A DNA stretch of 64,000 nucleotides from NCBI RefSeq assembly GCF_020531905.1, contig NZ_JAJAWG010000002.1:372001-436000 (forward strand). Direction: 5' to 3'. Shown here piece after piece: positions 16,860-56,166 of the stretch. Position 1 is the stretch's first letter, and each line of letters starts with the position of its first letter. The stretch comes from Deefgea salmonis. Lineage in GTDB: Bacteria > Pseudomonadota > Gammaproteobacteria > Burkholderiales > Chitinibacteraceae. Under the pieces are notes generated by a model. It was given only the letters and a program-made list of their open reading frames with translations. It was not told the DNA's origin and did not search any database. The translations under genes and the position numbers were made by a program.

Positions 16860-17453
16860 TTTTTATCCTCTAGGTGATGATTCATAGCTTATGGCTAAGT
16901 AACCGCCAGTTAAAATGGATTTAACGCTTATTTATAGATCAGAAATTCAAGTCTGTATTCCATTCTAGCGTGTGGAATTTAATTCTTACGCAATTATTTT
17001 TAATGCTTTCATTTTATATAATTATTTTATTTTTATATGTAAGTGATATTAGCTATTTATTTATCGCATAGTTAGTGGGTGTTAGTGTTTTTTATGGTGG
17101 TATCACTCTGCAAGCCCCTATTTATAAGAGTTTTAGAGATATACCTACATAAAATAGGGTAAAAAAATTTTGTGTTTTTTTATGGAAAATAGCCTGAATA
17201 TAGTAAGAAGCACGATGTGCTTTGGGTGAGGATTTTGAGCGTGAAACTACTTTTTCTATAAGAAACAACAGCTTAATTTTTAATCTGACTGGTTGGGGCT
17301 TACATGAAAATTTGGAGTGGTATTTTTTACGCCGGCTGTTTTTTGTAAGTTATTTTTTGTAAGCTGCTGTTGGATTTTTGTATGGTTTTTTGTTTTTGTC
17401 AGGCACGATGAGGTGGGGTAAGTGCTGCGGATACGAGTACAAAACTAAAGTTT
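16860..17453. other. AT-rich intergenic region upstream of gadB
   Basis: About 590 bases with no convincing gene. It must hold the gadB promoter (leftward), although no clear -35/-10 pair stands out. It contains one copy of the palindromic repeat family (17098-17146), an 11-bp direct repeat TTTTTTGTAAG (17339-17349 and 17353-17363) and several long A/T tracts that could bend DNA or bind H-NS-like proteins. In enterobacteria gad promoters have long, complex upstream regions; a similar layout is possible here. Confidence 0.5.
17098..17146 (-). repeat. 49-bp palindromic repeat, copy 1 (upstream of gadB)
   Basis: GGTAT at 17099 and ATACC at 17141, 42 bp apart start to start. Read on the minus strand it matches the family form with GCTT at offset 31. 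It lies in the AT-rich region between gadB and the phzF-like gene. Confidence 0.7.
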
Positions 17454-17478
17454 GCGCTCAGCTAGGGTTGCTGAGCGC
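17454..17478 (-). terminator. Hairpin downstream of the phzF-like gene
   Basis: Perfect 9-bp stem GCGCTCAGC/GCTGAGCGC with a 7-base loop, 26 bases past the stop of the leftward phzF-like gene. Read leftward it is followed by AAACUUUAG, a weak U-tract, so terminator activity is likely but not certain. Confidence 0.6.
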
Positions 17479-17503
17479 ATTTTCAATGCGAAACGAAGTG
17501 CAG

Positions 17504-18328
17504 TTAAATCCAAAATTCACCTTGGCCAATTTGATGAACTTGTCCACTGACCTTGATGCTTGTATCTACATCAAGTTGTAAACGAGCGATGCGATCAATG
17601 CGGTGGCCTTGTTCCATGATGAGGCTAAAAGGCGTGGGTTTTTGCATTGCGATTAAATAACCACCTAAGTTGGCGCAGGCTGAGCCCGTGCCAAAATCTT
17701 CAGCAGATACGCCATTTTGACTCCAGAAATAACGCGCGATGACTTTTTCTTCATCGTAAGCCCAGACCAAGGCGCCCGCACGTCCTTCTAAATTGATCGC
17801 CACGTGCATGAACCGCTCTGAATTCGGTTGGCAAGCCGCGATGCTGTCAGCGCAATCTAATTGGACAATCAATTGCTCTGTGCCGCAATTTACAAATAGT
17901 GATTGCTCAACAATATGACGGCTGTCGATACCCAGCGCGCTGGCGAGTGCATTTGATTCGGGGCCGGCGCGGTAGCTGGGTGGATTGGCGGTGAGCGTGA
18001 CGTGATGACCACTCACTTGCACAGGGATTAATCCGGCTTTCATTTGTAGTGTTAGATGTGAGCGACCTTGAGCAAGAACAAAGGCAGTGCCCAGTGTGGG
18101 GTGGCCCGCAAATGGCATTTCATAACTAGGGGTAAAAATACGCACAGCGGCATCTGCTTGATCACTCGGCGTGACAAAAGTGATTTCAGACAGGTTCATC
18201 TGCTGGCCTAATGCGGCCATTTCTGCCGCACTTATATCGCTAGCATCAGGAAAAATCGCCAGTGGGTTGCCCGAAAACAAGTGTTCGGTCGTAAAAACAT
18301 TGACGAGTTGATATTGTATTTTTCTCAT
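17504..18328 (-). CDS. PhzF-family isomerase/epimerase
   Basis: A 274-residue protein of the PhzF/YddE fold, which is related to diaminopimelate epimerase. Family signatures: the opening YQLVNVFTTEHLFSGNPLAI with the conserved Asn-Pro, LSEITFVT with the catalytic glutamate, PFAGHPTLGTA, and DFGTGSACANLGGYL near the C-terminus. True PhzF isomerises DHHA for phenazines, but no other phz gene is present, so this is one of the many paralogs of unknown substrate. Monocistronic; diverges from pcnB across a spacer that holds a palindromic repeat. Confidence 0.85.
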   Translation of the reverse strand: MRKIQYQLVNVFTTEHLFSGNPLAIFPDASDISAAEMAALGQQMNLSEITFVTPSDQADAAVRIFTPSYEMPFAGHPTLGTAFVLAQGRSHLTLQMKAGLIPVQVSGHHVTLTANPPSYRAGPESNALASALGIDSRHIVEQSLFVNCGTEQLIVQLDCADSIAACQPNSERFMHVAINLEGRAGALVWAYDEEKVIARYFWSQNGVSAEDFGTGSACANLGGYLIAMQKPTPFSLIMEQGHRIDRIARLQLDVDTSIKVSGQVHQIGQGEFWI

Positions 18329-18339
18329 TATTTTCTCTT

Positions 18340-18388
18340 GGGTATATGAATGTAAGTTATTAAATTCATAGCTTAGGCGGCTATACCT
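18340..18388 (+). repeat. 49-bp palindromic repeat, copy 2 (phzF-pcnB spacer)
   Basis: GGGTATAT at 18340 and TATACC at 18382, with GCTT at offset 31. It starts 11 bases upstream of the phzF-like start codon, in the divergent spacer, so it overlaps the 5' region of that transcript. Confidence 0.75.
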
Positions 18389-18540
18389 AGCAAATTTAAT
18401 ATTTTTTTAGATTGATTCATCGGTGTGATTAGTCCACTTTTGTTCTGTAATCATCACGTAGCCCATAAATCATCCACTGAATGCAGCACTCCGCTTGTAT
18501 AATATTGCGTTTCGCCTCTGTGCAGCTTCAAAATTACTCC

Positions 18541-19884
18541 ATGATTCGTAAATTTATCGGCAAGGTGCTACGGCGCCCAGGACGGCGTGTTGTGCACGCC
18601 AAGCATTATGGTATTCGCCGTGATCAACTGCACTCAGGTGCGTTGAAAGTCTGTGATCGCCTGCAAGCGGCAGGTTTCGAGGCTTATATTGTGGGGGGGG
18701 CTGTTCGTGATTTATTACTCGGCAAGTCACCCAAAGATTTTGACGTTGCAACCAGCGCGACACCAGAGCAAGTTCGGCACATTTTTAATCGTTCGCGCAT
18801 TATTGGTCGGCGCTTTCGGATTGTGCACGTGCCATTTTATGAGCGCGGCGGAGAGGAAATCATTGAAGTTACCACCTTCCGTGGTAGTGCCGAGTCGCCC
18901 ACCGATGCCAGCGGGCGAATTATCCGTGACAATGTCTATGGCACGATTGCTGAAGATGCTGATCGCCGTGACTTTACCGTCAACGCCTTGTATTACGACC
19001 CGAATACCGAAGAAATCATCGATTTTCACCATGGCATCGAAGATTTAGAAAAGCAGCAGCTAGTGATGATTGGTGATCCGGTTAAACGCTATCACGAAGA
19101 CCCAGTCCGGATGCTGCGCGCCGCACGGCTATCTGCCAAGTTGGGTTTAGCGATTGCGCCAGATACCCGCAAGCCAATTCGTGAACATGCCGCTTTACTG
19201 GAAAATATCCCGTCAGCGCGATTGTTTGATGAAATGATGAAGTTATTGCTGTCGGGCAAAGCTTGGGATTGTATGCAAGCGTTGCGCGCGCATGGTTTAC
19301 ATCAGCCGTTGTTTCCATTATTGGACAAGCTGCTTTCTCAACCAGAAACCGCCAAGTTTTTACAAAAAGCACTTGAAAACACCGATCAGCGTTTAGCCGA
19401 TGACAAGCCGGTTTCGGCGGGTTTTTTGTTTGCGGCTTTACTGTGGCATGAAGTTGAAGCGCTGTGGCAAAAGCGTCTTGCCGCCGGTGAAACCAAAATC
19501 ACCGCCTTGATTGACGCGATGAATGATGTTGAAAGTAAAGTCAGCAAACGTTTGGCAGTGCCTAATCGCTACAGTGCAGCAATGAAAGAAATTTGGTTAT
19601 TGCAGCCGCGATTTGAGCAACGCGTTGGCCTGCGCCCATTCCGATTATTAGAGCAAGCACGGTTTCGAGCGGCGTATGACTTTTTGTTATTGCGTGCCGA
19701 CTGCGGCTTAGTGGAAAAATCATTAGCCGATTGGTGGACGCAATTTCAGGTGAGTGACGAAACAGAACGGACGGCAATGATTGACTTGGCGGGCAAAAAT
19801 GGCCAATCGGGTGATGCCCCCGCCAAGCGCCGCAAACGTAGTCGTCCGCGTAAACCTGCCGCAGCCAAGCAGTCTGGAAACTAA
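18541..19884 (+). CDS. pcnB: Poly(A) polymerase I
   Basis: A 447-residue nucleotidyltransferase that adds 3' poly(A) tails to RNAs and so promotes their decay. The start at 18541 (MIRKFIGKVLRRPG) matches the family N-terminus; an in-frame ATG at 18481 would add 20 unconserved residues. Signature GGAVRD at 52-57 and catalytic DFD at 66-68 are intact; the RNA-binding tail is rich in Arg, Lys and Pro. The codons for Gly52-Gly53 form a run of eight G, so slippage there would destroy the enzyme. Four bases separate it from folK, as in many beta- and gammaproteobacteria. Confidence 0.95.
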   Translation: MIRKFIGKVLRRPGRRVVHAKHYGIRRDQLHSGALKVCDRLQAAGFEAYIVGGAVRDLLLGKSPKDFDVATSATPEQVRHIFNRSRIIGRRFRIVHVPFYERGGEEIIEVTTFRGSAESPTDASGRIIRDNVYGTIAEDADRRDFTVNALYYDPNTEEIIDFHHGIEDLEKQQLVMIGDPVKRYHEDPVRMLRAARLSAKLGLAIAPDTRKPIREHAALLENIPSARLFDEMMKLLLSGKAWDCMQALRAHGLHQPLFPLLDKLLSQPETAKFLQKALENTDQRLADDKPVSAGFLFAALLWHEVEALWQKRLAAGETKITALIDAMNDVESKVSKRLAVPNRYSAAMKEIWLLQPRFEQRVGLRPFRLLEQARFRAAYDFLLLRADCGLVEKSLADWWTQFQVSDETERTAMIDLAGKNGQSGDAPAKRRKRSRPRKPAAAKQSGN

Positions 19885-19888
19885 AGCA

Positions 19889-20386
19889 ATGAAAATATTT
19901 GTCGCTTTAGGCGCTAATTTGGGTGATCCAATCGCCCAGCTCAATACGGCATTGGCCAGCTTAGCCGCTTGGCCAAAAATGACATTGGTGCGCAGTTCTT
20001 CTTTTTATCGCAGCGCTGCAGTGGGCTATACCCAGCAACCTGATTTTGTGAATGCGGTGTGCGAAATCGATACCGAGCTCACTGCGCTTGAGGTTTTGGC
20101 TGCGTTGCTTGCGATTGAGACCCAAAACGGCCGTGCCCGTGAATTTAAAAATTCACCGCGCACCTTGGATTTGGATTTGATTTTGTATGGCCAAGAGCAA
20201 TACGACTTAGCCAACTTACAAGTGCCACATCCACGGATGCAGCAGCGGGCTTTCGTTTTGCAACCCTTGCTTGAAATCGCACCTGATATTGAGTTACCAC
20301 ACCTTGGTCCCGCTCAGCACTATTTGGCGGCCGTGGCCGAGCAAGTGTTGACGCGCATTCCTCAGAAAGCCACGCTTGCGGCTTAA
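19889..20386 (+). CDS. folK: 2-amino-4-hydroxy-6-hydroxymethyldihydropteridine pyrophosphokinase
   Basis: A 165-residue HPPK that transfers pyrophosphate from ATP to the pterin alcohol in folate synthesis. It opens MKIFVALGANLGD and contains the family signature SPRTLDLDLILYG with the two magnesium-binding aspartates. The ATG at 19889 is chosen because the protein then begins at the conserved core; an upstream in-frame ATG lies inside pcnB. It follows pcnB by four bases and precedes panB, so it is probably co-transcribed with both. Confidence 0.95.
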   Translation: MKIFVALGANLGDPIAQLNTALASLAAWPKMTLVRSSSFYRSAAVGYTQQPDFVNAVCEIDTELTALEVLAALLAIETQNGRAREFKNSPRTLDLDLILYGQEQYDLANLQVPHPRMQQRAFVLQPLLEIAPDIELPHLGPAQHYLAAVAEQVLTRIPQKATLAA

Positions 20387-20497
20387 ATGTATCGATTTTC
20401 TGATCTATCTCCATTAGGATTGGTGCACTTTGCGGGGACGGCCCAATTTGCCGTTATCGCAGCGCCAACAGCAGCACCAAAAGTGCTGATCTTTTAA
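20387..20497 (+). CDS. Possible 36-residue peptide between folK and panB
   Basis: An ATG directly abuts the folK stop (TAAATG) and opens a 36-codon frame ending 18 bases before panB. Its first residues are MYRFSDLSPLGLVHFAG. The abutting stop/start could allow re-initiation by ribosomes finishing folK, but there is no ribosome binding site and no known family. It may be spacer sequence. Confidence 0.2.
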   Translation: MYRFSDLSPLGLVHFAGTAQFAVIAAPTAAPKVLIF

Positions 20498-20515
20498 CTG
20501 CATGGATACCGAACC

Positions 20516-21307
20516 ATGAAGACGACTCTGACTACATTACAAAAAATGAAACAAGATGGCCAAAAAATCGCCATGTTGACTTGCTACGACGCCAGCTTTG
20601 CGACGCTATTGGATGCCGCTGGGGTGGATATTTTCTTGGTGGGCGATTCGCTGGGCAATGTGATTCAAGGGCAGCGCTCGACCTTACCGGTCACAATGGA
20701 CGATATGCTGTATCACACGAGTATCGTTGCGCGAGGCACGCAGCAAGGGCTGGTCTTGGCCGATTTGCCGTTTGGTAGTTATCAGGTGTCACACGCTCAG
20801 GCGTATGAAAACGCCGCACTGTTGATGGCCGCTGGCGCTGAAATGGTCAAAATTGAAGGCGGTGCGGTCATGGTCGATACCGTGGCATTCTTGGTGCAGC
20901 GTGGTATTCCTGTTTGCGCGCATATTGGTCTGCAGCCGCAATCGGTGCATGTGTATGGCGGATATAAGGTCCAAGGCAAAACTGAATCAGAAGCCGAAGT
21001 CCTCAAGCGCGACGCATTGGCATTACAAAATGCCGGCGCCAGCATGGTGCTAATGGAAATGGTGCCTGCATCCGTGGCGAAAGCCATTACTGAATCGCTG
21101 TCGGTACCCACCATTGGCATTGGTGCTGGTGTTGATGTCGACGGCCAAGTGCTGGTGCTGTACGACATGCTCGGCGTGTATCCTGGTAAGAAAGCGCGCT
21201 TTGTCAAAAACTTTATGAGTGGCAGCCATAGTATTCAAGGCGCGGTTGAAGCGTATGTGAAAGCGGTGAAGGGTTTAACTTTCCCAGCTGAAGAGCATTC
21301 GTTTTAA
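20516..21307 (+). CDS. panB: 3-methyl-2-oxobutanoate hydroxymethyltransferase
   Basis: A 263-residue enzyme that adds a hydroxymethyl group from methylene-tetrahydrofolate to ketoisovalerate, the first committed step of pantothenate synthesis. Motifs: [22 protein letters not shown] with metal-binding Asp44, and KIEGG. Length is standard. It follows folK and precedes panC, so folate and pantothenate genes share a rightward cluster; panD is not in the window. Confidence 0.96.
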
Positions 21308-21471
21308 TTAAATATTGAACACGATGAACAGGCCGAAATAAAACATAATCTAGCGTTTTAATCGGCCAATTGCTGCGTCTTACCCGTAGTTTTCGGATTG
21401 CACTCGGGTTTTCCTTACTTTGGTGTTCTCGTCATTGTTATCTACCCCCCAAATCTTAGCCCTCACACACC

Positions 21472-22314
21472 ATGAAAATCATCCATACCATTGCAGAACT
21501 TCGCGCTTGGCGCAAAACCGTTGGCACGGTGGCTTTTGTGCCGACAATGGGTAGCTTGCACGCGGGGCATATGTCGCTCATCCATGCTGCAAAAGCTGCA
21601 GCGGAACATACCGTCGTGAGTATCTTTGTCAATCGCTTGCAGTTTGGTCAAGGCGAGGACTTTGACCGTTATCCGCGGACCTTAGAAAACGACGCGGCTT
21701 TGATTGCAGAGCAGGGCGGCGTTGATGTTATTTTTGCCCCTGATGAGCATGAACTGTATCCCAATGTAATTCAGCAATATCAGGTTACGCCACCGGCGAT
21801 TGCCGACGAATTGTGTGGCGCATTTCGTCCTGGGCATTTCCGTGGTGTTGCCACCGTGGTCACGAAATTATTTAATATTGTTCAGGCCGACATGGCTTGT
21901 TTTGGTAAAAAAGATTATCAGCAATTATTTGTAATTCAAAGCATGGTTAAAGATTTGAATATGGATATTCAAATTCTACCGGTCAATACAGGGCGTGCTG
22001 AGGATGGTTTGGCGCTATCGTCACGCAATGCGTTCTTAAATGCCGATCAGCGCGCTGAAGCGCCGCGTTTATACTATCATTTGAGCCGAATGAAAACCGC
22101 GATTGAGGCGGGCGAAAAAGACTATTCCAAATTGGCGGTGCAAACTGTCACCGATTTACGCGTTCGTGGCTGGCATGATATTGATTATGTCGATACCCGC
22201 AATGCCGAAACCTTAAAACCTGCATCAAGTACCGATCACAAATTAGTGATCTTAATTGCAGCTCGGCTTGGCAATACTCGATTGATCGATAATATTGAAG
22301 TCAATCTGGATTAA
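21472..22314 (+). CDS. panC: Pantothenate synthetase (pantoate-beta-alanine ligase)
   Basis: A 280-residue ATP-dependent ligase joining pantoate and beta-alanine. ATP-binding motif [12 protein letters not shown] with His30 and His33, then FGKKDYQQL and LALSSRN, all characteristic. A 164-base spacer separates it from panB, so it may have its own promoter. A rightward terminator follows at 22335. Confidence 0.96.
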
Positions 22315-24840: not shown

Positions 24841-24889
24841 GGGTATCGATCCCTAGCCTGTATGTATTAATCGATTTGAGCCTATACCT
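24841..24889 (-). repeat. 49-bp palindromic repeat, copy 3 (directly after flagellin stop)
   Basis: GGTAT at 24842 and ATACC at 24884, exact family spacing. In the opposite orientation to most copies it shows GCTA at offset 32. It begins immediately after the flagellin TAG, so it lies in that gene's 3' UTR. Confidence 0.7.
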
Positions 24890-26925: not shown

Positions 26926-26974
26926 GGGTATATATTGATAGGCCTTTATATTCAAAGCTTGGATCTATATACCC
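26926..26974 (+). repeat. 49-bp palindromic repeat, copy 4 (folA-ppa spacer)
   Basis: GGGTATAT at 26926 and TATACCC at 26968, GCTT at offset 31. The arms are exact complements over GGGTATA/TATACCC. It lies between two convergent genes, before their shared terminator. Confidence 0.8.
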
Positions 26975-27607: not shown

Positions 27608-27867
27608 GATGGATTATCCTGAGTAGATGAAGCGAAAGAAAACCAACTGCATGCTGTCATCATTGTTCTTGCTAGGCAATGCAATGAGTTGACGATTAGT
27701 TTTCAAATTTGGATTGATATAAACGCTAGATTATATCTTTCCCTTGAAGCTCTTGATAGTTTGCTGAACGGAAAATGTAGGGAAAGTACAAATATTGCAC
27801 TGCAATAAGGGCGTGGCATACTGTTGCGCAGTATACAATTGATCATTACTCCTTGAGGTTGCTCGCG

Positions 27868-30558
27868 ATGAAACCCCACTATCTTGCCCCTTTGTTTGAT
27901 CCCAGCTCAATTGCGGTGGTGGGTGCATCGGATGCGGTTGGCTCTGTTGGGTATTCGGTGACGAGAAACATCTTGGATGGGGGTTATGCTGGCGCACTGT
28001 ATGCGGTGAATTTAAAGCATAAAACGGTGCAGGGTTTACCGGCAGTAAAAACACTCAGTAAGATTACTAATCCAGTGGACTTGGCCATTCTGACGACGCC
28101 AAGTCGTACATTACTGAAGTTAATCGAAGCGTGCGCTCAGCAAAATATTCGCCATGTGATGATTATGTCGTGCGATTTTGTTGGCCAAGATAAAGCCAGC
28201 CAAAAGCTACTGAATAAAATTTTACAGCTGGCCAAATCGCTCAATATCCGCATTTTAGGGCCATCGGTATTTGGCTATTGCCGCGTATCGAGTAAATTAT
28301 TGGCGGCCAATTTTAAAGGCAAAATTAAAAGTGGCAGCTTGGCGGTGGTCTCGCAATCGTCTTCGGTGACCACGGCGATTTTAGATTGGGCTGAATTACA
28401 CGACGTTGGTTTTTCTTCGGTGGTTTCTTTAGGTATTGCGTCCGATATCGATGTGGGCGATGTGCTCGACTATTTGGTTGCCGACCCCAAAACCAAATCC
28501 ATTTTGCTGTATATCGAAGAGTTAAAAGACGCGCGCTTGTTTATGTCGGCGCTACGCGCAGCGTCCAGATCCAAAGCGGTTTTGGCGTTAAAAGTCGGGC
28601 GTTATGAGCAAGAAATTAAAGTTGGCCGCACGCATTCCGAACGCTTAATTAATCACAATGATGTGTTTGATGTGGCGCTGAAACGCGCGGGGGTGTTGCG
28701 TTTACGCTCGATTAATCAATTGTTCACTGCGATTCGAGTGATGGATGGCTCTTATCGTACCAAAGGCCGGCGTCTGGCGATTATTACCAACGGGATTGGT
28801 GCCGGTTTAATGGCGGTCGATCGCGCTAATGATTTACATATTGCATTGCCGCAATTGGCAGAGGCCACCATTGCCCAGTTGCGGGAGCTATTGCCGCTGC
28901 AAAGCAGTGCTCACAATCCGGTGGATGTGTTGGGCGATGCCAGCGCCGAGCGCTTTAAACTCGCTACTGAGCTGGTGATTAAAGACCCAAATATCGATGG
29001 TGTGTTGGTGGTGTTTACCCCGCAAGTCGGTACGGACGATATGGCGACGGCCGAGGCGATGATTGCGCTGAAAAAGACCACCGATAAGCCTTTACTATTG
29101 GCGTGGGTGGGCGGCAAAAAAATCGATGCCAGCCGAAAATTATTAGCCAAGTCGCAAATGGCGTTTTTTAACGCGCCAGAAAGTGCCGTCGAGGTGTTTT
29201 ATTCGCTGGCCGCATGGCAATACAATCAGCAATTGCTGCTGCAAACGCCAAGTCCATTGGGCGAAATGGAAGCGCCAGATCTTGAAACGGCACAAATGAT
29301 TATTAGCACGGTCTTGGCCAGTGGCCGTGAAGTGCTCGATGAAGTGGAGTCAAAAGCGATTTTACGCGCGTTTCATATTCCCGTTACGCTCACCATTCGG
29401 GCGCAATCGGTTGACGAGGCCGTGTCGGCCGCAATGGGTTTGGGTTTACCCGTGGCGATGAAGATCGACGCCAAAGGCATCTTGCATAAAACCGATATCG
29501 ATGGCGTGGTACTTAATCTCAATAGTTTGGTACAGGTGGCCACTGAGGCCAGCAAAATGCTGTCGCGCGCGCAAGAACGATTGGGCGCAGACAATGTGCG
29601 TGGCTTAGTGATTCAACCGATGCATGGCAAAAAATCTGGCCGCGAATTAATGGTCGGCGTTGGCCGTGATCGCGCCTTTGGTCCGGTGATTACTTTTGGT
29701 TATGGTGGGGTCACTGTTGAGGTATTTAACGACATCGCAGTGTCTTTGCCGCCGCTCAATGAATACCTCGCTGAAAATCTAATTAGTCGCACCCGAGTCA
29801 AAAAAATGCTGGCGCCATTTCGCAATTTGCCCGGCGTGGATATGGCAGCGGTGAAGGCGGTTTTGCTGCGGGTTTCGGAGATGGTCTGCGAGTTTCCGCA
29901 AATTCAACAACTGGATATTAATCCGCTGATTGCCGACGAAAATGGTGTGATTGCCGTCGATGCGCGGATTGTGCTGGCACCATTGGCCGAGCATGCGCGT
30001 CGCTATAGTCATATGGCGATTCACCCTTATCCAGCGCATCTGGCGCAGATTACGCAATTAAAAAATGGCTTACCGCTGGTTTTGCGGCCAATTCGTCCTG
30101 AAGATGCTGATTTGATTGCCTTATTTGTGAGTAAATTGTCTGAAGAGAGTCGCTATAACCGCTTTATGAGCACGTTAAAATCATTGCCCCAAGCGATGCT
30201 GGCGCGTTTTACCCAGCTCGATTACACCCGAGAAATGGCGATTGTGGCGACGGTTGAAACGGGGATTGGGACTGAAATCATTGGCGTTGCCCGTTTTAAT
30301 GCCAATCCGGATCGAGATAGTTGCGAGTTTGCGGTGGTGATCAGTGATCAGTGGCAAGGAATGGGTTTGGGCGGACGCTTGATGAATGCCTTGTTTATCG
30401 CTGCGCGCGATATGGGCTTGTCGGTGATTGAAGGCGAGGTGTTAAGTAGCAATAAAACCATGCTCACCTTTATGAAACACCTGGGTTTTAGTATTGCGCG
30501 GCATGCGGAGGACGATAGCTTGAAGTGGGTGGTGAAGCGTTTGCAAGATCCAGTTTAA
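27868..30558 (+). CDS. Pat-type protein acetyltransferase: acyl-CoA synthetase (NDP-forming) fused to GNAT domain
   Basis: An 896-residue fusion. In order: a CoA-binding Rossmann domain (FDPSSIAVVGASD), the succinyl-CoA-synthetase-like region, an ATP-grasp domain (LPVAMKIDAKGILHKTDIDGV, about 530-690) and a C-terminal GNAT domain from about residue 730 with the acetyl-CoA loop DQWQGMGLGGRLM. Proteins with this order (Pat, YfiQ/PatZ) acetylate lysines of acetyl-CoA synthetase and other metabolic enzymes. The ATG at 27868 is preferred to an in-frame TTG at 27853. A short inverted repeat (ATACTG-TTGCG-CAGTAT, about 27820-27836) lies just upstream and could be an operator. Confidence 0.9.
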   Translation: MKPHYLAPLFDPSSIAVVGASDAVGSVGYSVTRNILDGGYAGALYAVNLKHKTVQGLPAVKTLSKITNPVDLAILTTPSRTLLKLIEACAQQNIRHVMIMSCDFVGQDKASQKLLNKILQLAKSLNIRILGPSVFGYCRVSSKLLAANFKGKIKSGSLAVVSQSSSVTTAILDWAELHDVGFSSVVSLGIASDIDVGDVLDYLVADPKTKSILLYIEELKDARLFMSALRAASRSKAVLALKVGRYEQEIKVGRTHSERLINHNDVFDVALKRAGVLRLRSINQLFTAIRVMDGSYRTKGRRLAIITNGIGAGLMAVDRANDLHIALPQLAEATIAQLRELLPLQSSAHNPVDVLGDASAERFKLATELVIKDPNIDGVLVVFTPQVGTDDMATAEAMIALKKTTDKPLLLAWVGGKKIDASRKLLAKSQMAFFNAPESAVEVFYSLAAWQYNQQLLLQTPSPLGEMEAPDLETAQMIISTVLASGREVLDEVESKAILRAFHIPVTLTIRAQSVDEAVSAAMGLGLPVAMKIDAKGILHKTDIDGVVLNLNSLVQVATEASKMLSRAQERLGADNVRGLVIQPMHGKKSGRELMVGVGRDRAFGPVITFGYGGVTVEVFNDIAVSLPPLNEYLAENLISRTRVKKMLAPFRNLPGVDMAAVKAVLLRVSEMVCEFPQIQQLDINPLIADENGVIAVDARIVLAPLAEHARRYSHMAIHPYPAHLAQITQLKNGLPLVLRPIRPEDADLIALFVSKLSEESRYNRFMSTLKSLPQAMLARFTQLDYTREMAIVATVETGIGTEIIGVARFNANPDRDSCEFAVVISDQWQGMGLGGRLMNALFIAARDMGLSVIEGEVLSSNKTMLTFMKHLGFSIARHAEDDSLKWVVKRLQDPV
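29720..29768. repeat. GGTAT-N37-ATACC palindromic site inside the Pat-type gene
   Basis: GGTAT at 29721 and ATACC at 29763 have the exact family spacing, within the ATP-grasp region. The internal GCTT is missing. It may be coincidental, or a true site overlapping coding sequence. Confidence 0.3.
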
Positions 30559-31740: not shown

Positions 31741-32154
31741 ATGTCTCTGTTTCGTGTTTTTGACGTTGCGTCATCGGCCATGAATGCGCAGTCGGCGCGC
31801 TTGAATGTGGTGGCGAGCAATTTGGCTAACGCCAATTCAGTCACTAGCTCTGATGGGCAACCGTATCGGGCTAAACAGGTTGTATTTCAAGCTGCGCAGA
31901 GCAATACCCACAATGCAGCATCCGTTGGCGTAAAAGTTGCTGGGGTGATCGAAGATCAATCACCACCGCGTTTGGTTTACGATCCGAAGAGCCCTTTTGC
32001 CGATGCCAATGGCTATATCGCCATGCCCAACGTGAGTGTGATCGAAGAAATGACCAATATGATTTCAGCGTCACGTTCGTACCAAACCAATGTCGATGTA
32101 ATGAATACGGCAAAAACTTTGCTGATGCGCACCTTGTCGATCGGTCAAGCTTAA
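31741..32154 (+). CDS. flgC: Flagellar basal-body rod protein FlgC
   Basis: A 137-residue proximal rod protein. N-terminal rod motif [16 protein letters not shown] and the C-terminal coiled-coil pattern [20 protein letters not shown] are typical of FlgC. It follows flgB by eleven bases and is translated as part of the rod/hook operon. Confidence 0.96.
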
Positions 32155-37577: not shown

Positions 37578-37626
37578 GGGTATATGTATCTGGATTATGC
37601 AAATAAAGAGCTTCATGCATATACCC
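37578..37626 (+). repeat. 49-bp palindromic repeat, copy 5 (flgI-flgJ gap)
   Basis: GGGTATAT at 37578 and TATACCC at 37620, GCTT at offset 32, with an additional internal TATGCA/TGCATA pair. It lies inside the flagellar cluster, 23 bases after the flgI stop. Confidence 0.8.
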
Positions 37627-38782: not shown

Positions 38783-40807
38783 ATGGCCTCATCGGTATTT
38801 GGTATTGGCGTCTCGGGCTTAAATGCCGCTAATTTAGGGTTAACCACCACTGGGCATAATATTGCCAACGTCAACACCGATGGCTATTCTCGGCAAACGA
38901 TAAAGCAAAGTGCGCCTTATCCTTTGCTAACCGGTAATGGTTTTAATGGCTTGGGGGTGCAGGTTGATTCCATTAAGCGCGTGTACGATCAGTTTTTGAC
39001 GCGTGCGGTCGATATTGCGCAAACCCAATCGAGCTATCAGCAAACCCGCTTAGCGCATTTGGCTGAAATTAATAATATTGTTGCCGATCCCACTGCGGGG
39101 GTGTCGCCGGCATTACAAGAGTTTTTTGCCTCAGTACAAAATGTGGCGACCAATCCGAGTAATCCGCCGTCGCGCCAAGCGATGCTGTCGAGCGCACAAA
39201 CGTTAATGAATCGCTTTCAGGTTTTTTCTCAGCGCTTAAATGAGCAGCGTGCTGCGTTAAATGGTGAGATTACCAATACCGTTGGAACCATTAATGCCTA
39301 CGCAGCGCAAGTGGCCGATCTAAATGGCAAGATCGTCGTCGCGCAAAGTAGTGGCCAGCCGCCCAATGATTTACTCGATCAGCGTGATTTGTTGGTGAAA
39401 GATTTAAATACCATGATTAAAACCACGTCATTGCCATTAAGCGATGGTTCGATTAATTTATTTGTGGGTAATGGCCAAGGCTTGGTGGTGGGTTCACAAA
39501 CCTATACTTTGGGCGCGGTTCCCAATCCTGCTAATCCAGAAAGTCTTTCGATTAGTTATGAACAAAATGGCAATTCAATCTTATTGCCCGATAGCTTAGT
39601 GACAGGCGGCCAGCTGGGCGCTTTATTGGATTATCGCAATCAATCGCTGGATTTAGCACAAAATAGCCTAGAGCGTACCGCCTTGGGTTTGTTAAGTACG
39701 TTTAATCAGCAGCATCAGGCTGGGCAGGATTTAAATGGCAATATGGGCAAAGCATTTTGGTCTTTTCCAACGACCAATTTAGGGCCTGGCATTGATGTGC
39801 CGCAGTTGGGTTTGATTCGACCCAACACCAATAACACCGTCCCTGCGACTGCGGTATTGTCTGGGTATATTCAAGATATCTCTAAGGTCACAACCAGCAA
39901 TTATGAGCTCAGTTTTGACGGTACGAATTACGCTTTGGGTAATTTAAGTGATGGTACGAAATACACTTTAAATGCCGCCGAAGCCACCGCCTTAACAACC
40001 CCGCCAGCGGGATTTACCAGCTCTGCAGGTTTGTCTTTGTCGCTGACTACAGCGCCAGCAGCAGGGGATCGCTTTACCATCATGCCTTTGAAAGGCTTTA
40101 TTGACCAAATGAAGGTTAATGTGAGCGATCCGCGTGAAATTGCCGCAGCAGGGCCGGTGGCAGCCGTTGAACCTAAAGCGCCGGCAGTAGTGAATACCGG
40201 AACTTTAAAGGTGTATCAGCCTGACGTGAAACCCCAGACTGCCGTGACGACTGATACCTCGATAGATCCTAATTTATTTACCCCTGTGACGTTGACATTT
40301 GTATCTGATCCGTCGGTGGTGCCATCGGGGATGGCTTATTCAGTGACGGGGGCGGTGCCTGCCGTAACGGGCAATCTTCCGTATCAAGCGGGCGCAGAGA
40401 TTAGCTATAACGGTTGGACGATGAAACTCGATGGCAAGCCGGCCAGTGGTGATAGTGTTACGGTGCAAAAAAATGCGGTCACCGCCAGCTCGGACAATCG
40501 CAATGTTTTGGCTTTGGGTAAATTGCAAACGACGCGTGTGTTGGATGGCAGTACCGCGACGTACCAAGAGTCTTATGGCCGCATGGTGGCAACGGTGGGG
40601 ACGCAAACCAGTGAGGCCACGATTATGGGTAAAGCACAAAGTAAGTTATTGATTAGCGCTGAAAACAATCGCAATTCAGTTTCTGCGGTGAATTTAGATG
40701 AAGAGGCAGCTAATTTATTACGCTATCAGCAGGCTTATCAGGCCTCAAGTAAAGTCATTCAAATCGCCCAAAAAGCCTTTGATGAAATCGTTAATTTAGG
40801 CCGATAA
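38783..40807 (+). CDS. flgK: Flagellar hook-associated protein 1, FlgK
   Basis: A 674-residue junction protein between hook and filament. The N-terminus has VSGLNAANLGLTTTGHNIAN and NTDGYSRQ; the C-terminus has NLDEEAANLLRYQQAYQASS, the hallmark helix pair. It is about 130 residues longer than the Salmonella protein, from an enlarged Ala/Pro/Val-rich middle region (about 430-600). AGGAG precedes its ATG, downstream of the sigma28 promoter. Co-transcribed with flgL. Confidence 0.95.
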   Translation: MASSVFGIGVSGLNAANLGLTTTGHNIANVNTDGYSRQTIKQSAPYPLLTGNGFNGLGVQVDSIKRVYDQFLTRAVDIAQTQSSYQQTRLAHLAEINNIVADPTAGVSPALQEFFASVQNVATNPSNPPSRQAMLSSAQTLMNRFQVFSQRLNEQRAALNGEITNTVGTINAYAAQVADLNGKIVVAQSSGQPPNDLLDQRDLLVKDLNTMIKTTSLPLSDGSINLFVGNGQGLVVGSQTYTLGAVPNPANPESLSISYEQNGNSILLPDSLVTGGQLGALLDYRNQSLDLAQNSLERTALGLLSTFNQQHQAGQDLNGNMGKAFWSFPTTNLGPGIDVPQLGLIRPNTNNTVPATAVLSGYIQDISKVTTSNYELSFDGTNYALGNLSDGTKYTLNAAEATALTTPPAGFTSSAGLSLSLTTAPAAGDRFTIMPLKGFIDQMKVNVSDPREIAAAGPVAAVEPKAPAVVNTGTLKVYQPDVKPQTAVTTDTSIDPNLFTPVTLTFVSDPSVVPSGMAYSVTGAVPAVTGNLPYQAGAEISYNGWTMKLDGKPASGDSVTVQKNAVTASSDNRNVLALGKLQTTRVLDGSTATYQESYGRMVATVGTQTSEATIMGKAQSKLLISAENNRNSVSAVNLDEEAANLLRYQQAYQASSKVIQIAQKAFDEIVNLGR

Positions 40808-48395: not shown

Positions 48396-48707
48396 TTAGG
48401 CGAAATGACAAACGTAATGCAAAGTTTCGATGGTTTCGATATCAAAACTTGAATTGGCGGGAACGCTAAATGATTGACCGGCAGAGTATGTTGTTGCAGT
48501 GCTTTCGTTGGCTTGCTTTACTGCACATACCCCAGCGACAACTTCCATGATTTCAGCCGCGCCGGTATTAAAAGTAAGGGCAGAGGGCTGAATAACACCG
48601 ATGGTTTTTTTGCTGCCATCGGCAAACAAAACAGTATGACTAACGCATTTGCCATCAAAATAGACATTGCCTTGCTTTAAAACAGAAACTTGATCAAATT
48701 GGCTCAT
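48396..48707 (-). CDS. ppnP: Pyrimidine/purine nucleoside phosphorylase (YaiE/PpnP)
   Basis: A 103-residue small cupin. [22 protein letters not shown] and [17 protein letters not shown] are the family signatures. E. coli PpnP phosphorolyses a broad range of nucleosides to the base and ribose-1-phosphate. Standard length (94-105). Located between yajQ and a DUF2788 gene on the same strand. Confidence 0.92.
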
Positions 48708-50360: not shown

Positions 50361-50984
50361 TCAGTTCAGTGCCAAGCGCAGCCCAAAGCTGACAAACAAA
50401 GTGCCTACTAATTTATTCAAAACAGTTTTTAGCCAGATTTTAGCCGAAAGTTGGCGCGCTAAGCTGCTGCCGACCAAGATTAAAGTGGTTAAATAGCTGA
50501 TGCTGACCAATTGCACGATGAACCCGAGTGCGGCAAAAGTATGCCAAACGTGTGGGTAATTGGGATTCACAAACTGCGGAAAAAACGCCATAAAAAATAA
50601 AATCGCTTTGACATTCACTAATGAAATACCGAGCGCTGAGCGAAATGCTTTTTTGGCTGAATGTGGCGTTGTCGCCACTTCGGGGGTATTGCTCTGCGAT
50701 TTAGCCAGTAAAGCACGTACGCCAATATACGTCAGGTAGGCTGCGCCTAAATAACGCACGATATCAAAGGCAATCGGGTTAGCCTTCATTAAAGAGGCAA
50801 CCCCTAAACTGGCCGCCAGCATTAAAATTAAATCACCCACCACAATCCCAGCTGCAGCCGCAAAGCCCGCCTTACGACCACGGGTGCTGGCCATGGTGAG
50901 TGCAAACAGTGAATTGGGGCCGGGCACTAAAATAATCAGTACCGTCCCCAATACATACGCCCAAAGATCAGTGATGCCTAGCAT
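50361..50984 (-). CDS. LysE/RhtB-family amino-acid exporter
   Basis: A 207-residue inner-membrane protein with about six helices. The opening LGTVLIILVPGPNSLFALTMASTRG, with the PGPN motif, and GAAYLTYIGVRAL are typical of the family, which exports amino acids such as lysine, arginine, threonine or leucine. Its ATG abuts the argF stop (TAAATG) and argG follows. Position between two arginine-synthesis genes suggests arginine or a related amino acid as substrate; this is inference. Confidence 0.88.
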   Translation of the reverse strand: MLGITDLWAYVLGTVLIILVPGPNSLFALTMASTRGRKAGFAAAAGIVVGDLILMLAASLGVASLMKANPIAFDIVRYLGAAYLTYIGVRALLAKSQSNTPEVATTPHSAKKAFRSALGISLVNVKAILFFMAFFPQFVNPNYPHVWHTFAALGFIVQLVSISYLTTLILVGSSLARQLSAKIWLKTVLNKLVGTLFVSFGLRLALN

Positions 50985-51899: not shown

Positions 51900-52109
51900 C
51901 AGATTTTGTCCTGGTCGATTCGCTTAAAGCGGGTGACCAAATGGCTGAAAAAACGAACATTATTCAATGTTTTACCCCATAAAGGCAAGTTATTTGCTGG
52001 ATCTGTTGGCGCTGTACTTATTCAGAAGGCGGCTACATTTTCATGCGCTGGACTCTAAGTGGAGTGTTATACTGATGTCAGTTCTCGAATTAAATAAAGC
52101 ACCCGCCCC

Positions 52110-52409
52110 ATGATCTGCAATCCCTACGAAATCATTATTCAAGGCATTACCAGCAACGGGCGTGAATTTCGCCCCAGCGATTGGGCTGAGCGTCTCTCAG
52201 GCATCCTCTCCACTTTTGGTGTTGATCAAAAACTGTCTTACGCACCGTTTGTTCGGCCTATGGTGCATAACAATGTGCGCTGTGTGGCGGTTGACAAGCA
52301 GTTAGAAAAAATTGATCCACGGGTCTTTGAATTTATTATGACTTTTGCCCGCGACAATGATTTACGGGTGGTCGATTGCCGCTCCCTGATTCAAGAGAGC
52401 GATCTCTGA
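52110..52409 (+). CDS. DUF3579 family protein
   Basis: A 99-residue soluble protein with the family features IIIQGITSNGREFRPSDWAERL and a C-terminal FARDNDLRVVDCR. DUF3579 is found mostly in betaproteobacteria and its role is unknown. In many relatives it also neighbours argF, so a link to arginine genes is possible but unproven. Followed by a short-chain dehydrogenase after about 100 bases. Confidence 0.85.
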   Translation: MICNPYEIIIQGITSNGREFRPSDWAERLSGILSTFGVDQKLSYAPFVRPMVHNNVRCVAVDKQLEKIDPRVFEFIMTFARDNDLRVVDCRSLIQESDL

Positions 52410-52512
52410 CGCAATACATTCAATCTACGTAAACCGGTTGTTGCGATGCAGCATTTGTTCTATGCTGCAAATCTAGCCCGTATGGGTATCTGACACCGTG
52501 TAGGAGTATGTT

Positions 52513-53253
52513 ATGAGATTGAAAGATAAAGTGGCGATCATCACGGGCTCTGCGAGCGGTATCGGCGAAGCCACAGCGATTAAATTTGCCGCTGAAGGTG
52601 CAAAAGTGGTCGTGTGTGATGTCAATCAAGCTGGCGTTGCTGCAGTGGTTGCCGCATTAACTGCGAACGGCGCTGATGCGATTGGTTTTGTGGTCGATGT
52701 CACCAAAACCGATACGATTGCTGCGATGGTGGCCGCCGTGAAGGACAAATATCAGCGGATTGACGTCTTGGTGAATAATGCGGGCATCGTCATGGATGCA
52801 CAGTTATTTAAGATGACTGAAGATCAGTTTGATCGGGTGATTGATATTAATTTAAAGGGTGTTTACAACTGCACGAAAGCAGTCGTTGATACCATGATTG
52901 AGCAAAACTCTGGCGTGATTCTCAACGCATCGTCAGTGGTTGGGATTTATGGCAACTTTGGCCAAACCAATTATGCGGCAACCAAGTTTGGCGTTATTGG
53001 TTTTGTAAAAACATGGGCGAAAGAGCTCGGCAAAAAAGGCATTCGTGCCAATGCCATTTGCCCTGGTTTTGTGGCAACGCCGATTTTGAATGCGATGCCA
53101 GAAAAAGTCATTCAAGCGATGGAAGAAAAAGTCCCTATGCGCCGTTTGGCGCAGCCTGCTGAAATTGCTAACGTCTACGCATTTTTAGCGTCTGATGAGG
53201 CCAGTTATATCAATGGCGCAGTGATTGAAGTGACTGGTGGCTTGACCTTGTAA
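52513..53253 (+). CDS. Short-chain dehydrogenase/reductase, FabG-like
   Basis: A 246-residue Rossmann-fold oxidoreductase. Cofactor motif [14 protein letters not shown], and the catalytic Tyr154-x3-Lys158 in YAATKFG with an upstream Ser in NASSVVG. Asp38 (VVVCDVNQ) suggests preference for NAD(H) over NADP(H). The best guess is a 3-oxoacyl reductase, perhaps in polyhydroxyalkanoate or fatty-acid metabolism; FabG proper is normally inside the fab cluster, so the substrate stays open. AGGAG precedes the ATG. Confidence 0.9.
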
Positions 53254-53271
53254 GTCTTTATGTAACTCAAT

Positions 53272-53301
53272 AAAAAACCCGCGATGTATTGCGGGTTTTT
53301 T
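53272..53301. terminator. Terminator after the SDR gene
   Basis: Stem AAAAAACCCGC/GCGGGTTTTTT with an 8-base loop; bidirectional, between convergent genes. Copy 6 of the palindromic repeat begins four bases later. Confidence 0.92.
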
Positions 53302-53304
53302 ATT

Positions 53305-53353
53305 GGGTATATGTCTGCAGGTCATGACTAATATGCGCTTTAAGCAAATACCC
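53305..53353 (+). repeat. 49-bp palindromic repeat, copy 6 (after the SDR terminator)
   Basis: GGGTATAT at 53305 and AATACCC at 53347, GCTT at offset 32. It lies past a strong terminator, so it is unlikely to be transcribed with the SDR gene, which argues for action as DNA. Confidence 0.75.
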
Positions 53354-53369
53354 TTATGCGCTTTCAATA

Positions 53370-54644
53370 TTAATTGAGTGCATTACCTTCCCAAACGATT
53401 TTCCAGCCTGCGGCATCTTGTTGCCAATACACGCGCTTTTTCATTTGATTATTCAAATTGTTACTGCGGTAGTTTTGATTAAAGGTTGCCACCATTTGGC
53501 TGGCTTGAGGGCCTGCGGCAAAAATGGATAGATCATCTAACTGAACTTTACTCCAGGTTTTTCCGCCATTGACCGCGGTTTTTTGTTCGCGCCACATGGC
53601 GAGATTTTGTCCTTCGCCACTGCGAAAATCGGTGGAATAGAAGTTCAAATATTGTGGGGTATCGAGTGCTTGCCAGCTGTTTTTCCATTGCTCGAGCAGG
53701 GTCAGCGCTGCCGTGTGCTGTTGCTGCCATTGCGTCGCACTCACCCATTGGATGGCCGGCACTGAGATCACCGGCGTATTGCCCGGTTGCAAATATTGGG
53801 CGACATCGAGCATTTCTTCGTTAGTCAGCACGACGCAACCATTGGAGGCTTGTGGCGCTCGAGCATAGGTGGCTGCTGGGCTGCCATGCAGCCAGATGCC
53901 GTGTCCGGTGCGGCTTTGACTGCGATCGAGTTCATTCGGGTAGGAAATCGGCCAAGCGCCAACGCCATATAAGTCCGCCAGTGCACCATAGGTTTTATCC
54001 AGTTGTTCGCGAGGCAGGTGGTTGGTGACGAAGTAAACGCCAAGTGGCGAGCGTTGGTCGCCTTCTACTTTTTTATCAACGCCCAATAAGCCCACGGTCA
54101 CGTAATGATCTTTGATGCGTTTGGGGCGTCCATTGTCATTGGCAAAGACATACAGTCGAGAGGTGGCGGCATCGATCAGAATGGCAAATTTTTGCTGCGG
54201 CGCAAAGGCGACAATATTGCCCGGTAAGCGATCGGCGTTCATTTTGTCGTTGCGATGGGCGATTCGCACCAAGGCTTCTTTGCGTAAATCATCCAGCACA
54301 TTGCTCGGTGCGCTGGCGACCCCACCGCCGATGGTCGATAGCGGCATCACGCGCATGGCGTAAAGGTCGGCACGTAATAATTGGGCCAGACGATAATTGG
54401 GTTGCTCAGCAATCAGCGCGTCGACCGTCGCACGGGCATCGGCCATATTGCCACTACGTATGGCATCGAGCGCAGCTAAGATGCGTTCTTCATGACTACC
54501 GGTGTGTGCCACGCCTTTCGCTTCGCTGCTTAGCTCGAACGGCGTATTGCTAGATTCAAAAAAGCGCGGTGTAGCTGCGGGCGCTAAGCAAAGTAATGCA
54601 GCCAAGCACAGTAGACGCTTGGTCCAAGGAGATAAACGTAACAT
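53370..54644 (-). CDS. L,D-transpeptidase (YkuD domain) with C-terminal NTF2-like domain
   Basis: A 424-residue exported protein with an N-terminal signal peptide. A YkuD domain spans about 145-290, with the catalytic set His253 in GIWLHGSP and Cys270 in ASNGCVVLT. Such enzymes crosslink peptidoglycan 3-3 or attach lipoproteins. The last 110 residues form an NTF2/SnoaL-like domain (from WKNSWQALDTPQYLNFYSTD) that resembles the end of the protein encoded next to it. It follows that gene by eight bases in one leftward operon. Confidence 0.85.
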   Translation of the reverse strand: MLRLSPWTKRLLCLAALLCLAPAATPRFFESSNTPFELSSEAKGVAHTGSHEERILAALDAIRSGNMADARATVDALIAEQPNYRLAQLLRADLYAMRVMPLSTIGGGVASAPSNVLDDLRKEALVRIAHRNDKMNADRLPGNIVAFAPQQKFAILIDAATSRLYVFANDNGRPKRIKDHYVTVGLLGVDKKVEGDQRSPLGVYFVTNHLPREQLDKTYGALADLYGVGAWPISYPNELDRSQSRTGHGIWLHGSPAATYARAPQASNGCVVLTNEEMLDVAQYLQPGNTPVISVPAIQWVSATQWQQQHTAALTLLEQWKNSWQALDTPQYLNFYSTDFRSGEGQNLAMWREQKTAVNGGKTWSKVQLDDLSIFAAGPQASQMVATFNQNYRSNNLNNQMKKRVYWQQDAAGWKIVWEGNALN

Positions 54645-54652
54645 ACTGTTTT

Positions 54653-55810
54653 TTAGCCGCCAATCCGTTCTTCAAGAATCAACCAGCGATTGCCATTTTT
54701 TTGCATGAGGAGTGTTTTGGTGGTGTTGCTGGATAAGCGATCTGATTGATACGATTGACGCAGTGTAACTTTGGCGTTGTTTTCGTCCAGCATACTGACT
54801 TTGACGCGACTGACTTTGACATTAATCGATTTGGGACCGGCAATTTTGCTTTGACGATCTTTTTCCCACGCCGCACGTCCGCCTGGGGCTTTGAATGCTT
54901 TGGCGTAGCTATTGACGTAAGCGCCAACGTTTTGTTTGCTCCACGCATTGGCCCAGTCTTCTACGCTGGCAATGACTTGTTGTTGCTGGTCTTTCTCTGC
55001 GTTAGGCGTACTTGTTGCCTTAGGGGTCGTCGTTGGTGTGCTCTTGGGGGTTGCAGTTGGGGTCGTCTTGGGCGCTACTGTTGGGCTGATGCTGGCCAGT
55101 GCAGTGGCTGTGGCTGTGGCTTTTGGCGTAGCGGTTTTAGTCGGCACAATGGCCGGTAGCGTTGGTTGTGGCGTAATAATGCCAATGTTGGTCGCGGCGC
55201 TCACTTGAGGCTTGTTGGCCGCAGGCAGTACTTTTGCTGCTAATGGTATTGCTGAAGTTTGTGGTAGTGCTGAAGTTTGTGCTGCGGCTATTCGCGTGGG
55301 CGGGGCTTGATTGGGATTAAATAGGGTGCCAACTAATTTGAGCTTGGTTTGTAGTTGTGGATTGCTGTTCTCGATTTGCAATGCCTTGTCATACGCTTGC
55401 GAAGCCAGACGAGCATATAAATCCCCCATGTTTTCATGGGCAATGGCATAGCTTGGATTGGTTTGAATCGCCATTTGCAATGCGGTACGGGCTTTATCAA
55501 ACTGCTTGGTATTGGCGTATAGCACGGCGAGATTATTGTAGGGCTCAGGCAGGTGCGGATAGTCTTCGGAGAGTTTATTAAACGCTTTAATGGCGTCTTC
55601 GTTACGGCCCATTTCGGTTAACGCAATGGCGCGTAAAAATCGAACTTGCGCGTCTTTTGGGGTTTTGGCGAGAAATTTATCCGCACGTTCTACCGCTTGC
55701 CCAAATTGTCGTGCACGTAAGAGTTGCTGCAGATCTTCTGCTTCACCGGCGTAGGCCATGCAAGTCATAACAGAAAAAACAGCGGCGAAAGTGATACGAG
55801 CTACAGGCAT
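54653..55810 (-). CDS. Periplasmic TPR protein with NTF2-like C-terminal domain
   Basis: A 385-residue protein with a signal peptide ending MAYA. Residues about 22-150 form three to four TPR repeats (for example LPEPYNNLAVLYANTKQFDKA), then a long Thr/Pro/Ala-rich linker (about 165-275) with repeated TPKAT-like units, then an NTF2/SnoaL-like domain starting WANAWSKQNVGAYVNSYAKAF. The ATG at 55810 has GGA upstream and starts the signal peptide; longer frames do not. It forms an operon with the L,D-transpeptidase, so a role in cell-wall assembly, perhaps as a partner scaffold, is likely. Confidence 0.8.
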   Translation of the reverse strand: MPVARITFAAVFSVMTCMAYAGEAEDLQQLLRARQFGQAVERADKFLAKTPKDAQVRFLRAIALTEMGRNEDAIKAFNKLSEDYPHLPEPYNNLAVLYANTKQFDKARTALQMAIQTNPSYAIAHENMGDLYARLASQAYDKALQIENSNPQLQTKLKLVGTLFNPNQAPPTRIAAAQTSALPQTSAIPLAAKVLPAANKPQVSAATNIGIITPQPTLPAIVPTKTATPKATATATALASISPTVAPKTTPTATPKSTPTTTPKATSTPNAEKDQQQQVIASVEDWANAWSKQNVGAYVNSYAKAFKAPGGRAAWEKDRQSKIAGPKSINVKVSRVKVSMLDENNAKVTLRQSYQSDRLSSNTTKTLLMQKNGNRWLILEERIGG

Positions 55811-56165
55811 TTTGATTCCATGCGGTGAGGGGCAACGATAAATTGGCGCAATTCTACCAAATAATGAGTGGTTTGACCTTGATGAACTGATCTGTTGCGC
55901 CGTTGTGGGTTTTATTTCGTATCGGCGCAAAATTAGATCGGTATTTGGCTTGGTTCTTGGGGGTTAAAAAATGTGGGCTGCGGCTCGAATGAGTGGTTTT
56001 TTTCATATTTTAGCGCTGGCAATGCGCTGATATTGCAGCATGCTTTATGCTTTTAGTGGCGATTGTTTGAGCTGTGTTTTGGTCAAATTGGGCGGTAGAA
56101 AGTATTTTTATATTGAGGGGTATTGCCACCTGATTATTGATAAATAAGGGCTAGATCGTAATACC
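55811..56165. other. Intergenic region between thermonuclease and TPR genes
   Basis: About 355 bases with no convincing gene. It should contain the leftward promoter of the TPR-transpeptidase operon near 55815-55900. Its far end carries copy 7 of the palindromic repeat (56118-56166). Nothing else stands out. Confidence 0.5.
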
Positions 56166-56166
56166 T
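56118..56166 (+). repeat. 49-bp palindromic repeat, copy 7 (at the thermonuclease stop)
   Basis: GGGTATTG at 56118 and AATACC at 56160, GCTA at offset 32. Its last base is the last base of the stop codon of the leftward thermonuclease gene, like copy 3 which abuts the flagellin stop. Confidence 0.7.

Follow-up and report, generated by a model that had tools for sequence, protein, structure and literature searches.

The analyzed window is a stretch of 64,000 nucleotides of the Deefgea salmonis genome (contig NZ_JAJAWG010000002.1, positions 372,001–436,000), in which copies of a palindromic element, GGTAT-N37-ATACC, are dispersed between and within predicted genes (Table 1). The window contains nine exact copies, seven intergenic and two within genes. 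An earlier note on this DNA had listed the seven intergenic copies, with arms 42 bp apart and with coordinates that include one flanking base; all seven are found at these places, while the two genic copies, at 8134 and 29721, had been missed. Below, positions of the 47-mer are numbered 1–47; G000 is the source genome, other G numbers are compared genomes, and L numbers are fetched stretches. The contig sample is a 456-kb part of the same contig and contains the window; counts refer to this sample unless another scope is given.

The spacing of the two arms is rigid. Dinucleotide shuffles of the window (n = 100) yield on average 0.01 copies of GGTAT-N37-ATACC, with a maximum of one. The contig sample has 51 full copies at N37, five at N38, and none at N36, against a mean of 0.25 over 28 control spacings. 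In the complete genome of 3.26 Mb, 387 full copies are present, whereas the reversed pattern occurs twice. The possibility that N37 is no more frequent than other spacings, or than in shuffled sequence, is clearly rejected, as the counts at N37 are far higher. The starts of the arms are separated by 42 bp, or four helical turns, which would place both arms on one face of the helix.

In 54 sites, exactly one of the ten end bases deviates, where about 12 such sites would be expected for all positions together; in 39 of them the deviating base is the outermost G. Since the mismatch excess falls mostly on this base, the near-invariant core is GTAT-N37-ATAC, and the outermost G, originally taken as part of the arms, is merely preferred. 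The core occurs 97 times, against 4.4 ± 2.7 at 27 control spacings; cores with one mismatch are not in excess (123 vs. 126.6 ± 15.6, in Deefgea, the one genus tested). At N38, nine core copies are seen, every one within a predicted gene, and seven of the eight alignable ones are retained in G001. Extrapolation by length or by the core-to-full ratio gives about 650–700 core sites per Deefgea genome.

Genes were predicted by a simple purpose-written caller, whose short predictions probably include spurious ones. While 12% of the contig is intergenic, roughly every second core copy lies there, 48 of the 97 being located within predicted genes longer than 300 bp. Of the 31 full intergenic copies, 20 are in tandem, seven in convergent, and four in divergent gaps, these classes holding 58, 17, and 24% of intergenic DNA, respectively; several copies directly adjoin stop codons, and some others predicted start codons. 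The core-to-core gaps have a mean of 4.7 kb and a coefficient of variation of 0.86, which is near random spacing.

A filamentous-phage-like stretch (G000:C19, ~175–192 kb; L024, L025) has no core site at all; a Zot-like protein is seen there at ~184.3 kb, and the stretch was read as a prophage by eye. The subset of sites mapped over the whole G001 chromosome is spread throughout, with one gap of 277 kb, and in G011 the listed subset of sites is spread over 2.99 of 3.63 Mb. In G001, the side of the element flanked by TG switches its preferred strand along the chromosome, similar to replication-strand skew (judged by eye). A syntenic stretch of Deefgea rivuli (G004, L054) holds three near-identical elements about 400 bp apart (oriented positions 7336, 7728, and 8153), perhaps a local duplication.

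Table 1. Element copies and an RNA gene in the window (ORF, open reading frame; SRP, signal recognition particle)
Feature	Coordinates	Strand	Context and occurrence
Full copy, GGTAT-N37-ATACC	8134..8180		Within AcrB-family gene 6972-10145(-); same place in G001 and G005; in G002 with outermost base changed
Full copy, intergenic	17099..17145		Also in G001 and G002; none there in G005
Full copy, intergenic	18341..18387		Between PhzF-like gene and pcnB; core in 7/7 Deefgea genomes
Full copy, intergenic	24842..24888		Immediately past flagellin stop codon; core in 7/7 Deefgea genomes, interior diverged
Full copy, intergenic	26927..26973		Between convergent DHFR and pyrophosphatase genes; core in 7/7 Deefgea genomes
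Full copy	29721..29767		Within CoA-ligase/GNAT gene 27853-30558(+); full ends in 7/7 Deefgea genomes
Core copy, CGTAT...ATACC	31862..31908		Within ORF 31741-32154(+); core in all six Deefgea genomes covering the locus
Full copy, intergenic	37579..37625		Past flgI; core in all six Deefgea genomes covering the locus
Core copy, TGTAT...ATACC	40212..40258		Within ORF 38783-40807(+); single core match, may be chance
Core copy, AGTAT...ATACC	48485..48531		Single core match, may be chance
Core copy, GGTAT...ATACG	50685..50731		Within ORF 50361-50984(-); single core match, may be chance
Full copy, intergenic	53306..53352		Between convergent genes; core in G001
Full copy, intergenic	56119..56165		Adjoins end of SNase-family gene 56166-56807(-); core in G001
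Core copy, TGTAT...ATACG	58987..59033		Core in G001
Rare N38 variant, GGTAT-N38-ATACC	4863..4910		Within ORF 3651-5405(+); core retained in G001
Rare N38 variant	60718..60765		Within ORF 60459-61436(-)
Bacterial small SRP RNA	60322..60419	-	No other Rfam family reaches its gathering score in the window

Retention at orthologous positions

Orthologous intergenic copies were compared at five loci, each in three to seven Deefgea genomes. Positions 2–5 and 43–46 are 100% identical there, and the interior, at 49%, is barely above the flanks at 44%. As the copies were found by pattern, identity of the ends is partly built in; to control for this ascertainment, equal GTAT/ATAC pairs at other spacings were used.

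Between G000 and G001, two Deefgea species (309 coding sequences, fourfold-site difference 0.315), the core is kept at all 37 alignable coding sites, against 86 of 166 controls (52%; Fisher p = 8e-10), and in gaps between aligned genes a core copy is present in the homologous gap in 41 of 42 cases, against 20 of 53 controls (38%; p = 2e-10). The scoring covers 37 (coding) and 42 (gap) of the 97 sites, with 60 and 55, respectively, not scorable; a few of the gap sites are called coding by the gene caller. In the reverse direction, 37 of 38 coding sites of G001 are kept in G000. The 41 kept gap copies show 24 to 47 identities over 47 bases, so many interiors are undiverged in this pair. For G000 and G003 (139 coding sequences, fourfold-site difference 0.571; 77 coding and 79 gap sites of the 97 not scorable), the core is kept at 17 of 20 coding sites, against 10 of 78 controls (p = 1e-9), and in 17 of 18 gaps, against 0 of 19 (p = 1e-9). 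One locus of the window, at 17099, lacks a copy in G005.

Since the core is retained above the level of the control spacings, the DNA of the element itself is under purifying selection, within genes as well, and has little turnover. As the cores are held at the same places, a protein site is favored over a mobile element or an RNA hairpin, and the elements are very probably protein-binding sites under position-specific selection. Of the functions proposed earlier, a paired operator for a global DNA-binding protein agrees best with the rigid dyad, its fixed positions in both coding and intergenic DNA, and selection at the DNA level, with a putative binder described below.

Low turnover also bears on a DNA uptake signal, that is, elements of the DNA uptake sequence (DUS) or uptake signal sequence (USS) type that spread by themselves: the competence machinery would favor DNA bearing them, and transformation would maintain them in and between genes. 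The Neisseriaceae, whose DUS is 12 bp long, are in the same order as the element-bearing genera. Neisseriaceae DUS lie in and between genes, according to the part of PMC3630211 consulted. The element is similar to DUS/USS in having hundreds of copies dispersed in coding and intergenic DNA of a limited group of genera, and absence of elements from the phage-like stretch would be consistent with uptake; however, the DUS are short and do not resemble a 47-bp palindrome whose arms are rigidly spaced at 42 bp, and an uptake drive should yield gains and near-copies, whereas turnover is almost nil and one-mismatch cores are not in excess in Deefgea. We consider an uptake signal improbable.

Interior preferences and self-complementarity

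The interior preferences are weak and symmetric: T at position 11, A at 14, G/C at 15–17, TT at 19–20, and an AT-rich center. GCTT, earlier pointed out as shared by oriented copies, is indeed present, but only as part of this weak symmetric consensus. The interior is clearest in Chitinilyticum (DNA of 61% GC; 59 core copies at N37 in 341 kb, and 0–6 at every other spacing from 25 to 55), where it is approximately GGTAT-N5-TGCAGCC-N-TTT-N5-AAA-N-GGCTGCA-N5-ATACC, as derived from 12 sites plus a list of cores judged by eye. The half-site carries two sub-boxes, GTAT and TGYAGSC, about 10 bp apart.

TT at positions 19–20 is seen in 31–70% of half-sites, against a background of 3–7%, in four data sets. 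In the two Deefgea sets (43 and 56%) and in Chitinilyticum (70%), no other interior step is as strong; in Chitinibacter TT is enriched (31%), with AG at 14–15 slightly stronger (36%). TT at 19–20 and AA at 28–29 are exactly 9 bp apart around a central base pair (odd dyad); the two steps are enriched in all four data sets, and both are present in 11–58% of sites.

Outside genes, Deefgea interiors pair at 8.08 of 18 positions, against 7.01 ± 0.27 for shuffled halves (0 of 2000 shuffles), and Chitinilyticum interiors at 8.29, against 7.46 ± 0.24 (1 of 2000 shuffles), while coding interiors pair no better than shuffled halves (5.69 of 18 vs. 5.55). Some intergenic copies are near-perfect palindromes. 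Between G000 and G001, pair-preserving double changes amount to 17 of 65 at the symmetric register, compared with about 8% at offset registers; the shared symmetric consensus accounts for part of this excess. Intergenic self-complementarity is a modest but significant second layer and not the main signal. Template-switch correction of imperfect palindromes as its source is only an idea.

This pairing, the double changes, and the abutment of several copies on stop codons would be expected of RNA hairpins (terminators, 3' stem-loops) or of small mobile palindromes similar to repetitive extragenic palindromic (REP) sequences or miniature inverted-repeat transposable elements (MITE), both considered in the earlier note. 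A hairpin as the general function was rejected: of 18 positions, 8.1 pair in copies outside genes but only 5.7 in those within genes, where 48 of the 97 cores lie, and the coding copies show no excess of pairing; the copies occupy tandem, convergent, and divergent gaps; and flanking base counts show no T run. A mobile element (REP, Correia, MITE) is not supported either, since the copies are alike in little but their ends, with interiors only 49% identical even between orthologues at the five loci, their positions are orthologous, and Deefgea shows no tail of decayed one-mismatch copies. Both kinds of explanation are thus highly improbable.

Taxonomic distribution and a candidate binder

All 15 searched genomes of Deefgea, Chitinibacter, and Chitinilyticum have from 259 to 542 full copies: 259–453 in seven Deefgea, 376–542 in six Chitinibacter, and 276 and 298 in two Chitinilyticum genomes. 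The other 28 genomes of the family Chitinibacteraceae have 0–8 full copies, as do 57 genomes of the other families of the order, and in the rest of the class-wide sample (369 genomes) there are at most 12. No comparable rigid dyad is seen in 80–120 kb each of the outgroup genomes G007, G008, G012, and G010. Viral contigs have 12 stretches with an exact match to the YAG/CTR version, which by a rough estimate is near chance. In the PcnB tree (14 of 17 sequences; L072, L080, and L081 left out because of an internal stop), the three genera are not grouped alone, and two changes are needed; a single origin in the three genera was therefore dropped, and losses or separate gains are possible.

Other palindromes were also seen in these comparisons. 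GTGGG-N6-CCCAC, short-looped and REP-like, is present in seven copies in L077 (Amantichitinum) and in eight in L134–L137 (G010). Short inverted pairs are repeated 15 times over 21 kb of L080 (Pseudomethylobacillus aquaticus); they may form an array, for example one of clustered regularly interspaced short palindromic repeats.

Three protein families were tried as the binder: FlhC, HU/IHF, and ParB. The FlhDC operator, about 48 bp long and made of two inverted boxes, is similar to the element in overall length and plan, but a search of 11 element-bearing genomes gave no FlhC above the curated cut-off (FlhD was not searched), and FlhDC was rejected; G003 has one sub-threshold FlhC match containing stops. 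A ParB/Noc-type paralog was rejected too, as ParB_N has a single match in seven of nine element-bearing genomes, with a second one only in G001 (below the cut-off) and G004.

The HU/IHF search reveals an extra family member in nine of the nine element-bearing genomes searched, with a match extending 5 residues beyond the profile length. This protein, below called x, has 99–105 residues, a 5-residue insertion, and the usual GRNPRTGE beta-arm in all 15 genomes; going by the structure of HU and IHF, the insertion lies between helices 1 and 2. Among solved structures, x is matched best by IHF and HU. A nine-row profile (E <= 1e-22) finds x in all 15 element-bearing genomes, nine of which supplied the profile rows, but not in the 19 genomes that represent seven other Chitinibacteraceae genera. 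In an order-wide search (300 genomes, E <= 1e-30, up to 16 candidates scored per genome), x is found in four genomes, all element-bearing and already among the 15. In all but one of the seven Deefgea genomes, the x gene is followed at a distance of about 50 bp by a core site. G011, G004, and G003 (L229, L230, and L231, respectively) have a further HU-like gene (91 amino acids, starting with MNKAELIT), which some element-bearing genomes lack.

On this evidence, x is the putative binder of the 47-bp elements, an assignment to which we give slightly more credence than doubt. Several observations weigh against it. In one more genus of the family, g8, x is present in eight of nine genomes (seven full-length and one fragment), yet these genomes have 3–8 full copies each, against 1–5 of the reversed control, and in 100 kb of one of them there is no N37 core and no other rigid dyad that stands out. 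Interior-like matches in g8 show a small excess at the highest threshold (7 vs. 1 shuffled), none with a core. At the genus level, x is thus matched with sites in three of three genera bearing the element, but is also found in one of the eight others; given this ratio and the three families tried, the match may be a coincidence. Four HU/IHF members or the longer match are also seen in G015, G046, G048, G050, G052, and G054, although none of these has a match to the x profile at the E <= 1e-22 and 1e-30 cut-offs. The length of 47 bp exceeds that of usual IHF/HU sites, and the A+T content of the sites lacks the 10-bp phasing that was looked for as a sign of wrapping. Finally, the end boxes are not absolute in Chitinilyticum, as in 100 kb the core is broken in six of the 18 best interior matches, and in two or more of these the altered base is at one end.

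The x protein of g8 has a different insertion region and lacks the C-terminal tail, so its specificity may have changed. In G013 (g8; L227 and L256), the x gene is a 60-residue open frame beginning near a G run, which may be a pseudogene, a phase-variable tract, or an assembly error.

Alternatively, x may be a bystander, and another sequence-specific protein, e.g., a two-headed helix-turn-helix factor or a domesticated recombinase, may organize the chromosome or regulate globally through the elements. The evidence of selection stands without x, g8 carries x without sites, and the GTAT and TGYAGSC sub-boxes look as expected from two adjacent major-groove contacts; on the other hand, no such protein was found among the three families tried, and the interior TT/AA spacing and the odd dyad suit an HU/IHF dimer. 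We regard such a protein as rather unlikely.

Proposed mode of binding and related systems

If x is the binder, the 47-bp element would be the site of a symmetric homodimeric DNA-bending protein that grips both ends together, contacting GTAT at one end and, 42 bp further along the same helical face, ATAC at the other. The two arms of x would kink the DNA at the TT (19–20) and AA (28–29) steps; the DNA would wrap around the body of the protein, and the insertion and the C-terminal tail may read the outer GTAT boxes. As x is encoded by a single gene and would form a homodimer, a palindromic site is expected. The TT/AA arrangement fits the HU/IHF geometry, a fit noticed only once x was found. About 650–700 fixed bends per chromosome could then pin loops or supercoiling domains, a putative role of the elements as architectural or domain anchors.

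No description of such an element was found among the open-licence papers listed by literature searches, consistent with the impression of the earlier note that no known family resembles it. The matS/MatP, Noc, and SlmA sites are short and number tens per genome; like the element, they are palindromic and dispersed, and the element could likewise structure the chromosome, but it is present in hundreds of copies. HIP1 of cyanobacteria is also a clade-limited palindrome repeated genome-wide; however, it is a contiguous 8-mer, GCGATCGC, discussed together with methyltransferases (in the part of PMC4390886 consulted), while the element has two boxes 42 bp apart.

The closest parallel is provided by the sites of IHF/HU (DNABII) proteins, with which the element shares several hundred dispersed copies, a long footprint, an AT-rich center, and favored steps 9 bp apart. 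For IHF, two bends 9 bp apart in a site of 35–40 bp and around 300 sites in E. coli are given in the parts of PMC8421141 and PMC9519438 consulted, where a simulation suggests that IHF bridging can separate topological domains. The element differs in being palindromic, 47 rather than 35–40 bp long, with strict ends, a rigid spacing, and fixed places, including those in genes. Nor does it follow the IHF consensus WATCARNNNNTTR with its one-sided asymmetry: its interior is symmetric, with AG and G/C at 14–17 and TT at 19–20. In agreement with an IHF/HU-type system, the 15 element-bearing genomes all have a family member beyond the usual HU and IHF subunits, although g8 has it without the sites. 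The proposed system would thus be IHF-like, with a palindromic, stricter, and position-conserved site.

Nucleoid proteins in bacteria mostly bind with little stringency, which leaves sites that are difficult to recognize from sequence. The several hundred sites of the present element can be read directly, are conserved one by one, even within coding genes, and come with a candidate protein. Tentatively, and with somewhat more doubt than confidence, x may have become a strict sequence-specific homodimer at about 650 fixed palindromic addresses in and between genes; these addresses would then serve as heritable bends or domain boundaries, analogous in bacteria to insulators. With sites legible in the sequence and a candidate protein, the existence of fixed, sequence-encoded architectural anchors in bacterial chromosomes becomes testable, as does the effect of removing one or all of them. 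The same holds for the way in which a general DNA-bending protein becomes strictly specific, for which g8, having the protein but no sites, is a natural comparison.

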